Below, piece after piece: positions 19,240 to 24,600 of a stretch of DNA of 64,000 nucleotides; position 1 is the stretch's first letter; every line of letters begins with the position of its first letter. A program made the translations under genes and the position numbers. This DNA is from Methanogenium marinum. Its GTDB lineage: Archaea; Halobacteriota; Methanomicrobia; Methanomicrobiales; Methanomicrobiaceae. The notes under the pieces are model-generated. The model was not told where the DNA came from, made no database searches, and worked only from the letters and a program-made list of their open reading frames with translations. Location of the stretch: contig NZ_JAKELO010000002.1 in assembly GCF_028912405.1 (NCBI RefSeq), forward strand, positions 310,001-374,000. The letters are read 5' to 3'.

Positions 19240-20580
19240 TTATTCGTCTGAACGACGCAGGAGAAGAACCGCAGCAAAAACCAGCCCTGCAAAAACCGGC
19301 AGAAATCCTGCAGGGACAGGTGTGGAAGGGGGCGTTGTGGCGGTCAACTGTGCAACCACATTGACGGTGTCCCCCGGAAGGAGATTTATCGTCGTTGTCC
19401 AGTCTTCATAGCCATCAAGACGTATCAGAATCGGATACTGGCCCGCCTTCATGGACAGGGTCGCCGGTGTAATCCCTTTTACGACATTATCGATGTAGAC
19501 CGTTGCACCCGATGGTGCTGACGAGAATGAGAAAATACCCTCTGCATCAGGGTCAATCACCGGAGTCGGGGTCACAGAGGGAGTGGCAGTCTCCACCGGA
19601 GTGACGGGAATGTCCGGCATCGGAAGAGAGTAGAGATACAGTTTGCCATCTGATGAGGCAACCGCACATGCACCGCCCAGAGGCGAGAGTGAGACTCCGT
19701 TTACACTGGCAGATGCAGACAACTGAGTGACCATCTTTCCCTCGATATTATAAATAGTCGTGATACTATCCCCACGTGCCAGTGCAAAGTATGCTCCCTG
19801 CAGGGTGGCAGAGACATCATTGACCTGGGATATCGGCCGCTCCTGTGACACGATTTTACCGGTATTATCGAAGACATAGGCATAGGCATCATTCCCTCCT
19901 GCAACGAGGTATTTGCCGTCAGGGGAGATATCGAGTCCAAATACCTGCCCGTTTATCTGGTAACTCCAGACATTCTGTCCCTCAGCATCCAGAACCCGTA
20001 TCTGGAACCCCTTACTCCCCGCTCCGATAAGGCTGCCATCCTCCGTCACAGAAACTGAAAGAACAGCCGAGTCCATTTTGTGTGCCCAGACTTCTGTTCC
20101 CATATTTGTGTAGCGGTAAACCTTTGCATCAGCACAGGCAACAGCGATCACCGAACCATCCGCAGAGATGTCGACATCGTTCACAATTCCCTTGAACCGT
20201 TTGGACCAGAGCAGAGTTCCTTCATTGTCATAGACCAGAAGGTCCCCGATATCGGTGCCTGCCACAACATATTCAGCACCACGGGAAACCGCCACACCCC
20301 AGACCGGAGAGGCTGTGTCAACCGTCCAGAGGTGCTCTCCTTCAATCGTAAGGAGCAGCACTTTATTGTTATAAGTCCCGCCTGCCACATACATGACATC
20401 CGGGGAGATGTCACAGTCATACATGTTCGTCGGCTGGGAATAGGCCCAGATTTCTGTTGCAGCAGGCGACGCTGCCGCTGCACTCCCGGTCATTGCCACA
20501 CACCCTGCGATGGCAATGAGCAGGATCATATATATTGGTGCATACCTGAAGGAAGACATCCACGCATCAAACAGTTTCAT
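19240..20580 (-). CDS. Secreted beta-propeller protein with PEGA domain and C-terminal anchor
   Basis: A 446-residue exported protein. Residues 5-40 contain a signal/anchor helix. Residues 45-325 consist of seven or eight repeats such as DISPDVMYVAGGTYNNKV and DISADGSVIAVACADAKV, a WD40/PQQ-like propeller. After a Pro/Thr linker, residues 345-415 are a PEGA domain (SSAPSGATVYIDNVVKGITPATL). The end (PAGFLPVFAGLVFAAVLLLRRSDE) is a hydrophobic helix plus basic tail resembling archaeosortase-type or simple tail anchors. ATG at 20580 is chosen because GGTG lies 9 bases upstream. Likely displayed on the cell surface. The upstream region carries a strong operator-like array. Confidence 0.85.
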   Translation of the reverse strand: MKLFDAWMSSFRYAPIYMILLIAIAGCVAMTGSAAAASPAATEIWAYSQPTNMYDCDISPDVMYVAGGTYNNKVLLLTIEGEHLWTVDTASPVWGVAVSRGAEYVVAGTDIGDLLVYDNEGTLLWSKRFKGIVNDVDISADGSVIAVACADAKVYRYTNMGTEVWAHKMDSAVLSVSVTEDGSLIGAGSKGFQIRVLDAEGQNVWSYQINGQVFGLDISPDGKYLVAGGNDAYAYVFDNTGKIVSQERPISQVNDVSATLQGAYFALARGDSITTIYNIEGKMVTQLSASASVNGVSLSPLGGACAVASSDGKLYLYSLPMPDIPVTPVETATPSVTPTPVIDPDAEGIFSFSSAPSGATVYIDNVVKGITPATLSMKAGQYPILIRLDGYEDWTTTINLLPGDTVNVVAQLTATTPPSTPVPAGFLPVFAGLVFAAVLLLRRSDE

Positions 20581-20592
20581 ATCATTCACCAT

Positions 20593-20689
20593 TGATACAA
20601 GAGCGTATCATTTTCAACGATACGTTGTAGTGTATCATTTACCAATGTGATACAACACAACGTATCATATACCTGAGGCTTCGTGATAC
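20593..20689. promoter_or_regulatory. Array of seven alternating GATAC/GTATC half-sites
   Basis: Half-sites GATAC at 20594, 20619, 20649 and 20685 alternate strictly with GTATC at 20605, 20632 and 20662. They form three dyads: TGATAC-N6-GTATCA (20593-20610), CGATAC-N8-GTATCA (20618-20637) and TGATAC-N8-GTATCA (20648-20667), plus one extra half-site. The array fills the region just upstream of the propeller/PEGA gene start and downstream of the mutY-like gene. This is a probable multi-site operator for that surface protein. The regulator is not evident in the window. Confidence 0.75.
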
Positions 20690-20722
20690 GACTATTTAAG
20701 GGTGTTTGACGCAGGACGCACC

Positions 20723-21619
20723 CTATGCAATCCTCAAAAGCCCCGATTCTTCAGAAAGAAGGCATTCACCCACCATTTTCAAAATAATTTTATGCGTCCG
20801 TTCGGCATCATCGCCACAGGCGGCAACCACAGCATCACGGGATGACGGCCCTTCATCCAGGAGATACCGCAGAACCCGCCCCCGGATCTGCCGATCGGAA
20901 CCGTCAAAAGCTGCCTGCACGGTATATCCATGACTCCTTCGGTTCGGATTTTCCACCGCCTGTTTTGCCATTGCACCATAATCCATCAGTGCATAATACC
21001 ATTCCCGGGGATTTATCCAGTCAAGGGTCTGCCTCACAAGCGGCCGGATTCTGTCGTCATGGACCTTATCCTCTGTCGGGAAGAAGAAGTGGATAAAGAC
21101 CCGCCTGATATTGGTCTCGATAAAGACGACCGGTGCGTTATAGGCAAACGCAGCGATGGATGCGGCAGTCGCAGGACCAATACCCGGGAGCGTGACCAAT
21201 TCTTCAGGCGTCTTTGGAAGGCAGCCGCCGAACTCCTCCATCACCATCACAGCTGCATCCCGCAGCATCTTCGCACGCCTGTTATACCCCATTCCCTGCC
21301 AGACACGCAGCACCTTTTCAAGCGGTGCTGCCGCAAGAGAGGCAAAATCAGGGAATGCTGCCATGAATTCAGGATATTTTGCCCGTACCCGTGCCACCTG
21401 TGTCTGCTGGAGCATCACCTCTGAGACAAAGATGGCATACGGGTCTGTTGTGTCTCTCCATGCCATTTCACGCCGGTTTGCCTCATAATACTGCCAGATA
21501 ATCTTTCGAAACGCCGATACGGCCTCCGGAGAGAGAAGGGTATAATCTGATTCAGCGGAAAACGGTGTGGAATTGCGGGAAAAAAAAGGAGAATTTAGTT
21601 GATTATCCGGATCAACCAT
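20723..21619 (-). CDS. MutY-like DNA glycosylase lacking the Fe-S cluster
   Basis: HhH-GPD base-excision glycosylase of about 298 residues from ATG 21619. The frame also opens at a TTG at 21640. WRDTTDPYAIFVSEVMLQQTQVARV and LPGIGPATAASIAAFAYN are MutY signatures, the second being the helix-hairpin-helix. At the catalytic Asp position the motif reads FIETNIRRVF, giving Glu instead of Asp. After EN-P-NRRSHG the four-cysteine Fe-S cluster loop is absent and a winged-helix-like C-terminus takes its place. This describes a known cluster-less subfamily often mislabelled as HesB. The ATGGTTGA junction overlaps the carB stop by 8 bp, so translation is probably coupled. Confidence 0.82.
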   Translation of the reverse strand: MVDPDNQLNSPFFSRNSTPFSAESDYTLLSPEAVSAFRKIIWQYYEANRREMAWRDTTDPYAIFVSEVMLQQTQVARVRAKYPEFMAAFPDFASLAAAPLEKVLRVWQGMGYNRRAKMLRDAAVMVMEEFGGCLPKTPEELVTLPGIGPATAASIAAFAYNAPVVFIETNIRRVFIHFFFPTEDKVHDDRIRPLVRQTLDWINPREWYYALMDYGAMAKQAVENPNRRSHGYTVQAAFDGSDRQIRGRVLRYLLDEGPSSRDAVVAACGDDAERTHKIILKMVGECLLSEESGLLRIA

Positions 21620-24600
21620 GATAGTGGGAGAGTGGCTCAATCGTAATTGAATCCTTCTTCAAACTGCGGATTGCCTGTGCTGCAGCATTGGCCGCCTGAA
21701 TGGTCGTAATATATGGAATATTGTAGTCAAGCGCCGCCCGCATGATACGGACATGATCCTGACGGGAATATTTTCCGGAGGGGGTATTAATAATCAGCCG
21801 CAGGTCTCCTCTGCGCATCACATCGATGACATTCGGGGAACCTTCCTGCACTTTTCTCACAAGGTTTGCCGGTATGCCATGGGATTCAAGGAATGCAACC
21901 GTTCCTGCAGTGCCAAATATCTTCAGACCCAGTTCATGCATATTCTTTGCTGCGGGAAGGATGCCTTCCTTGTCCTCTGTGCCGACTGAGATGAATACGT
22001 TGCCTTCCAGCGGCAGTTCATTGTCTGCTGAAAGACAGGCCTTGTAGTAGGCACGACCGAAGTCGTAATCGATGCCCATCACTTCACCGGTGGACTTCAT
22101 CTCCGGGCCAAGGACCGTGTCCACACCGGGGAGTTTGTTGAAGGGTAAAAGGACCTCTTTTACTGCAACATGCGACATCACCGGTTCAGAAACACCTAAA
22201 TCTGCCAGTTTCTGACCATACATCACCTTTGCAGCAATCTTTGCAAGCGGCATGCCGGTCGCCTTTGAGACAAAGGGAACTGTCCGGCTGGCCCGGGGAT
22301 TAGCCTCAAGGATATACACAACCGTGTCTTTGACAGCAAACTGGATGTTGATGAGTCCAACCACGCCAATGCCGATAGCAATGCTTTTGGTATACTTCCG
22401 CACCGTCTCAATCACATCAGCTGTGAGAGACTGGGGTGGAATAACACATGCAGAATCACCGGAGTGGACACCGGCTTCTTCGATGTGTTCCATAATACCG
22501 CCTATCAGGACATCCGTTCCGTCACAGACAGCATCCACATCGATTTCGATTGCGTTCTGCAGGAATGAGTCGAGGAGAACCGGGTGCTGCCGGCTGACCC
22601 GCACTGCCTCACGGATATAGGTCTGCAGTTCAATCTCGTCATGCACGAGCTCCATTGCCCGCCCGCCAAGGACATAGGACGGCCGCACCAAAAGCGGGAA
22701 CCCAATTGTCTCTGCGATGGTGAATGCCTCCTCTTCAGAGTAGGCGGAACCATTCGCAGGCGATGGTACATTAAGCTCTTCCAGAAGTTTGCTGAACCGC
22801 TCCCGGTCCTCTGCCATGTCCATCGCATCAGGAGAGGTGCCAAAGATTTTGGTCTTCAGGTTTCCGGACGCGACAGCCCGCTCCAGCGGCAGAGCAAGGT
22901 TAACAGAGTTCTGGCCGCCGAACTGCACCATTACACCGGCATAATTGTCCGATTTCAGGATGTTTGTCACATCCTCAAGTGTCATCGGCTCAAAGAAGAG
23001 CCGGTCTGAGGTGTCGTAGTCAGTGGAGACAGTCTCAGGATTGTTGTTGACGATATGCACCTCAACCCCTTCTTCCCGGAGAGCCTTCACCGCATGCACC
23101 GTGCAGTAGTCAAACTCAATACCCTGCCCGATACGGATGGGACCGGAACCAAGGATGAGGACTTTCTCCTTTTCATCGGGGACAATCTCGGTCTCATCCT
23201 CCCAGGTTGAGTAGAAGTAGGGTGTCGTCGCAGGGAACTCTGCAGCACAGGTATCAACCATCTTATAGGTGGGCATACCACCCACATCCCCCACCATCTC
23301 TTCGGAGATACCTGAGAGGGTGGAGATTTCTTCTGAGGAAAAACCGGACCGCCGTGCCGCCCGGATAGTTTCAGGTGTTGGATTGCCTGCCGCGAGTGTC
23401 TCTTCCATCAAAATGATATTGCGCATCTTCTCAAGGAAGAAGGGTGCAATATAGGTCAGTTCTGCGACTTCATCAACAGAAAAACCAGCCCGGAACGCAT
23501 CAAAGATACACCCGAACCGTTCATCTGTCGGGTTTGCAAGGAGCATACGAATTTCAGACTCTGATGTATGCGAGTACACGTCTGTGTCAAGGGACCGCAT
23601 TGCCTTTTTAAAGGCCTCTTCAAGCGTGCGTCCGATGGCCATCACTTCACCGGTGGACTTCATCGCGGTGGTGAGGGTACGGTCTGCGTTCGGGAATTTA
23701 TCAAACGGCCACCGTGGCACCTTCACAACCACGTAGTCTATTGCCGGCTCAAACGATGCCGGGGTGCATCCGGTGACGGTGTTTGTGATCTCGTCTAAGT
23801 TCAGACCGATTGCGATTTTTGACGCCACACGGGCAATCGGGTATCCGGTGGCTTTGGATGCCAGTGCTGAAGAACGGGATACCCGCGGGTTTACCTCAAT
23901 TACACGGTAGTCGCCGTCCTGATATGCGAGCTGAACATTACAGCCGCCCTGGATGTCGAGTGCCCGGATAATTTTTATGGATGCTGTCCGTAGTTTCTGG
24001 AACTCATCGTCCCTGAGGGTCAGAATCGGTGCAACGACCACACTTTCACCAGTGTGGATACCCATCGCATCGACATTCTCCATTCCACAGATGATGATAC
24101 AGGTATCAGCAGCGTCACGCATAACCTCAAACTCAATTTCCTTCCAGCCAATGACACTCTCTTCAATGAGCACCTGATGGATACGGGAGCGCTGCAGGCC
24201 CAGTTCCACGATTCTCTTCAAATCGTCTGCGGAGTATGCAACACCGCCGCCGGCACCACCAAGGGTGTAGGCAGGGCGGATAATAGCAGGAAGACCAACA
24301 ATTTCCAGCGCCTCATCAAGCTGGCCCATATCGGTGAGGATCATACTCCGGGGCACTGGTTCACCAATCTCATCCATCAGGTCACGGAACTGTTCCCGGT
24401 CTTCACCGCGATAGATGGCTTCAAGAGGTGTGCCAAGTATCTGTACACCTTCCAGAGCGCCCATCTCGGCCAGTTCTGCCGTCATATTGAGGCCGGTCTG
24501 ACCGCCCATCCCGGAAAGAATGCCGTCCGGCTTCTCTTTTGCAATTATTTTTGCAATTATATCAGCCCGGATTGGCTCAATGTAGATAATATCTGCCGTT

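Follow-up and report, generated by a model that had tools for sequence, protein, structure and literature searches.

Which role, if any, should be assigned to the dense array of short half-sites that separates a gene for a predicted propeller protein from a mutY-like gene in Methanogenium marinum, which of the two genes would it serve, and would it act as DNA or as RNA? In the window, the whole stretch of 64,000 nucleotides analysed here, positions 20593-20689 contain seven GATAC/GTATC half-sites that alternate strictly as +-+-+-+, with the 5-mers starting at 20594, 20605, 20619, 20632, 20649, 20662 and 20685. This arrangement, already described in an earlier note on this DNA, holds in full and is the strongest cluster of any alternating 5-mer pair on contig C2. 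Of the three TGATAC-N6/8-GTATCA dyads claimed in that note, two are exact, namely TGATAC-N6-GTATCA at 20593-20610 and TGATAC-N8-GTATCA at 20648-20667 (none expected from shuffles), whereas the third, CGATAC-N8-GTATCA at 20618-20637, is one outer base off (C for T).

The 2.17-Mb contig C2 carries 5,762 GATAC/GTATC sites (2.65 per kb), and the array is the sole place on it with more than four sites per 100 bp; the possible objection that the motif might be just as dense in coding DNA does not hold. Among all 512 5-mer pairs, the longest alternating cluster on this contig is the GATAC/GTATC array, the only one whose sites alternate seven times in a row. TGACA/TGTCA near 1179700 is the runner-up and reflects an ordinary tandem repeat with a period of about 50 bp. 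A Poisson estimate yields approximately 0.0014 seven-site clusters per contig, or about 2e-5 when strict alternation is added. The estimate used the observed GATAC density because GATAC is enriched about 1.8-fold in the window over dinucleotide shuffles. These cluster statistics cover contig C2, with the 62-kb contig C1 outside their scope, and for practical purposes they exclude a chance origin of the array. The excess of GATAC is general, with 169 occurrences in window positions 1-64000 against 91 expected from dinucleotide shuffles. The region of the runner-up (G000:C2:1179699-1179900, outside the window) consists of about five tandem copies of a unit of about 50 bp with TGTCAAGT.GACTTGACA-like palindromes, located between two ORFs.

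The locus was compared across seven Methanogenium genomes, including that of the window (G000), M. cariaci (G001) and Methanogenium sp. MK-MG (G003). On the minus strand, the TATA box is followed by half-site 1, the predicted transcription start, half-sites 2-7 within the leader, the ribosome-binding site and the start codon, in the arrangement TTAAATA-GTC-GTATCA(1)-16 bp-TGATAC(2)-8 bp-GTATCA(3)-10 bp-TGATAC(4)-8 bp-GTATCG(5)-7 bp-TGATAC(6)-6 bp-GTATCA(7), then GGTGA and the ATG at 20580. The features are as follows.

20723..21640, minus strand: upstream gene of the MutY/HhH-GPD family (HhH-GPD 1e-15), not the target of the array
20693..20699, minus strand: TATA box TTAAATA of the propeller gene; AAATAGTC in six genomes, TATATAGTC in G005
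20684..20689, minus strand: half-site 1, GTATCA, at about -20 to -15; GTATC invariant in all seven genomes
20666..20670, minus strand: predicted transcription start region, about 27 nt from the TATA centre, placed by the archaeal TATA rule
20662..20667, minus strand: half-site 2, TGATAC, exactly 16 bp from half-site 1; GATAC and the N16 spacing identical in all seven genomes
20648..20653, minus strand: half-site 3, GTATCA, forming the N8 dyad 20648-20667 with half-site 2
20632..20637, minus strand: half-site 4, TGATAC, part of the lineage-specific expansion
20618..20623, minus strand: half-site 5, GTATCG, imperfect, forming the second N8 dyad with half-site 4
20605..20610, minus strand: half-site 6, TGATAC, first arm of the terminal N6 dyad
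20593..20598, minus strand: half-site 7, GTATCA, abutting the ribosome-binding region; GTATC retained in all seven genomes
20586..20590, minus strand: Shine-Dalgarno-like GGTGA; GTG of GGTGGTGA invariant in the alignment
19240..20580, minus strand: target gene, encoding a predicted secreted beta-propeller and PEGA protein with a hydrophobic C-terminal tail

Under the -26/-27 rule for archaeal TATA boxes (PMC4158304), transcription is predicted to start near 20666-20670, so that half-site 1 would precede the start and half-sites 2-7 would coincide with it or follow it. The array, which had been assigned to the promoter, does adjoin it but sits downstream of the TATA box and mostly within the predicted 5' leader. 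The ORF is open from ATG 20592, which had been taken as the gene start; this codon is not conserved, whereas ATGAAA at 20580 is invariant across the seven genomes and is probably the true start of the gene.

The product of the target gene matches Pfam PEGA (6e-16) as well as WD40 and PQQ_2 above their cut-offs, with no NCBIfam model matched at cut-off, and its domain content and hydrophobic ends suggest a surface protein. It has 33 matching stretches in its own genome, and orthologs 71-87% identical are present in all seven Methanogenium genomes. Given that this class has many relatives in these genomes, the array could serve as a lead to when a methanogen makes such a propeller/PEGA surface protein. 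The gene is surrounded by mutY, carAB-like genes and genes for a DHH/CBS protein and a pyridoxamine oxidase-like protein, and none of these neighbouring genes encodes a regulator. In MK-MG, a pair of small genes, the first of which possibly encodes a DNA-binding protein, is located between the DHH/CBS gene and the propeller gene (L219, 6448-7322) and is missing from the other neighbourhoods compared.

The choice between the two flanking genes is decided by the fate of mutY, which is mostly deleted in M. cariaci and G005 (draft assembly errors being possible in both), while both retain the core of the array; hence the core serves the propeller gene and not mutY. The mutY remnants are found at L220 (G005) and L224 (M. 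cariaci), and in G005 an internal deletion seems to join the two ends of the gene.

The core, TATA-GTC-GTATC-N17-GATAC with a third half-site downstream, is kept in all seven genomes, and in each of them the TATA box is 3 bp ahead of half-site 1 and the hexamers of half-sites 1 and 2 are separated by N16, including G004, the genome in which the spacer changed most. In the aligned block, none of the 10 core positions of half-sites 1 and 2 varies, compared to 8 of the 16 spacer positions (Fisher p ~0.008), although identity over the block is 92-100% among five of the seven genomes and this conservation therefore does not amount to seven independent observations. The alignment reveals no conservation in the intergenic DNA upstream of the TATA box, as far as it is covered (the MK-MG contig stops within the TATA box). 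The third GTATC is found 6 or 7 bp further on in five genomes and 8 bp further on in G000; in G005, a degenerate half-site, GTATT, directly follows half-site 2, and the intact third one belongs to the terminal N6 dyad further on. All seven genomes have a terminal N6 or N7 dyad beside the ribosome-binding site. Outside Methanogenium, the two nearest sister-genus orthologs (L014, L015) have a mutY-like end upstream and an AT-rich TATA-like box but no GATAC motif. Thus, absence of the array where the gene is kept, which according to the earlier note would count against its role, does not occur within Methanogenium but is seen outside it, and the element appears genus-specific among the genomes examined. 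Taken together, the conservation of half-sites and promoter position across the genus and the survival of the core after mutY loss make a regulatory site for the propeller/PEGA gene well supported at the sequence level, in agreement with the regulation originally proposed.

We consider it reasonably probable that the array acts as a DNA operator through which a sequence-specific transcription regulator controls this single gene. The functional part would be the three-half-site block common to the genus, in which the inverted half-sites 1 and 2 frame the DNA from immediately behind the TATA box up to the predicted transcription start. These two half-sites are exactly 16 bp apart, about two helical turns centre to centre, and would therefore lie on one face of the DNA, and the third follows 6-8 bp downstream of half-site 2 in most genomes. 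The operator would overlap the promoter, and a protein bound to the core would most likely block recruitment or escape of RNA polymerase, that is, act as a repressor. Here, an inverted repeat is indeed conserved in the interval from the TATA box to the (predicted) start or across the latter. The sites of the archaeal repressors TrmBL1/Tgr, MDR1 and Phr likewise lie downstream of the TATA box and mostly overlap the start (PMC4158304). The MDR1 and Phr sites described there resemble the array in the proposed interference with polymerase recruitment after the TATA box and differ from it in motif and in that, for the array, no adjacent or autoregulated regulator gene was found. Against an operator stands the spacing of the third half-site, which at 6, 7 or 8 bp would be unusual if a rigid dimer binds; a fixed distance from TATA box to start could in part account for the strict 16-bp spacing, and activation instead of repression is possible.

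The position of half-sites 2-7 in the predicted leader, with the last one abutting the ribosome-binding site, would also fit an RNA element whose hairpins, with TGATAC/GTATCA arms, control translation or mRNA stability. The G000 leader indeed folds far better than shuffled sequences (z about -3.8 to -4.0), forming one long hairpin and another of 6 bp, but any row of inverted repeats necessarily folds well, and a stable fold is not shared by the relatives: the leader fragments of four single-dyad genomes, whose ends differ slightly, gave z of -0.94, -0.63, +0.48 and -1.38. Nor did we detect compensatory base changes in ten dyads, all of which have the same core, with arm cores fixed save for one broken half-site and an outer pair that is T-A, T-G or an unpaired C-C. 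In the downstream dyads, the loops between the arms vary while the arm cores are perfect in 19 of 20 cases. Because the cores are conserved as sequence, the loops are variable, compensation is absent and half-site 1 is conserved despite its place upstream of the predicted start, DNA is favoured as the level of action, and an RNA element seems unlikely. If the array acts as DNA, two known regulators come close to its half-sites. The E. coli NikR operator, GTATGA-N16-TCATAC (PMC7055735), has the same 16-bp gap as the conserved pair GTATCA-N16-TGATAC and half-sites that differ from it by one base, and each of the seven genomes encodes one NikR. However, GTATCA/TGATAC dyads are absent upstream of nikR (six of the seven genomes, those recovered) and of cbiM (G000), a search of G000 for further intergenic N16 dyads, one mismatch allowed, gave none, and, unlike the NikR operator, the array includes a third half-site and extra dyads at a gene that is not a nickel importer. 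We regard NikR as a very improbable binder. The cbiM upstream region (L256) contains two GTAATACT elements, conceivably a site for a metal regulator.

A protein of the TrmB family related to TrmBL1/Tgr is a slightly more probable binder, if still quite improbable. The Thermococcales glycolytic motif bound by TrmBL1/Tgr, TATCAC-N5-GTGATA, is likewise an inverted repeat that, in the case of repression, lies downstream of the TATA box and mostly overlaps the start (PMC4158304, PMC4706686); it has the half-site TATCA in common with the array, and three TrmB-family matches are above the Pfam cut-off in G000. In contrast, the facing half-sites of the array, counted from TATCA to TGATA, are 16, 10 and 7 bp apart, the glycolytic spacing is present only in the last pair, which is imperfect and not conserved, and the 200 bp ahead of each of the two strongest TrmB genes contain no half-sites. 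Furthermore, TrmBL1/Tgr serves a sugar regulon, compared to one promoter found per genome and several half-sites per leader in the case of the array. No published motif resembling the array was found in the literature searched, which is weak evidence given that subscription papers were mostly outside the search. Overall, the sequence comparison points to a promoter operator that is conserved across the genus, serves one propeller/PEGA gene and probably binds a repressor; if this is real, the array could be used as bait to fish out a new archaeal regulator.

The number of half-sites differs among close relatives, with three in G001, G002, G003, G004 and G006, five (one of them degenerate) in G005 and seven in G000. 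The density from which cooperative binding had been deduced is not the conserved feature, as most of the genus has three half-sites; the seven-fold density is a lineage-specific elaboration of the three-half-site core. The two N8 units of G000 are near-inverted copies of each other (17/20), G005 has a comparable N8 dyad with one arm degenerate (GTATT), and the loop of M. cariaci, TTCAGC, exactly inverts GCTGAA, the loop of G003 and G006, all of which suggests template switching or inverted duplication at palindromes as the source of growth. A tandem-repeat origin was rejected, the direct-repeat copies being short and unevenly spaced. The extra dyads of G000, probably added to the leader by such inverted or template-switched duplication, may strengthen occupancy, or they may be drift. 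The latter version, in which the core alone is functional and the increase from three to seven half-sites is neutral palindrome expansion, is compatible with an operator and has only slightly less than an even chance of being correct: the inverted copies, the variable unit number and the GTATT half-site of G005 are in its favour, but in G000 the 5-bp core is intact in all seven half-sites and the full hexamer in six of the seven, more than would be expected after long drift. It is also conceivable, if rather unlikely, that a genus-specific regulator serves this single surface-protein gene through an operator enlarged by inverted duplication of entire dyads, with the number of half-sites (3, 5, 7) tuning repression strength between species. 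If the array is a real operator, this species series would represent a natural experiment on operator growth.

The dedicated regulator postulated in the earlier note is compatible with a motif confined to one promoter, but neither such a regulator nor the regulon and autoregulated gene that a genome scan for the dyads was expected to reveal were found in G000, where the motif does not recur at several promoters including a regulator's own. There is no other exact intergenic dyad with the array spacings in this genome, and all other exact dyads lie inside ORFs. The other exact N6 dyads are located in two formate dehydrogenase alpha-subunit-like genes and cannot be taken as a regulon; these genes (L003, L004; G000:C2:488164 and 491549) are about 3.4 kb apart and near-identical over the compared stretch. 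The two other exact N16 dyads also fall within ORFs, in a gene for a PEGA protein and in a ribosomal protein region. One-mismatch dyads between genes are scattered, and a group of relaxed intergenic dyads at C2:1482110-1482166 that looks like a degenerate array is absent upstream of the relatives' orthologs. A DtxR-family-like gene (C2:1275833) has half-sites upstream, located within the end of the ORF before it or close to that end.

Across 232 genomes of the order, a composite pattern of the element matched within the genus only at the propeller gene, and among the matches outside Methanogenium that were listed and examined, all are in ORFs except L076. A TATA-linked version of the pattern gave no convincing similar promoter in the three non-genus matches that were opened, and most of the others share one coding-like sequence. 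The second near-copy of the dyad in M. cariaci (C25:1132) is inside an ORF. In a sister genus, GTATCATAC-N10-GTATGATAC follows an AT-rich stretch at about position 1508 of L261 and precedes a winged-helix-like ORF, with an integrase-like ORF nearby.
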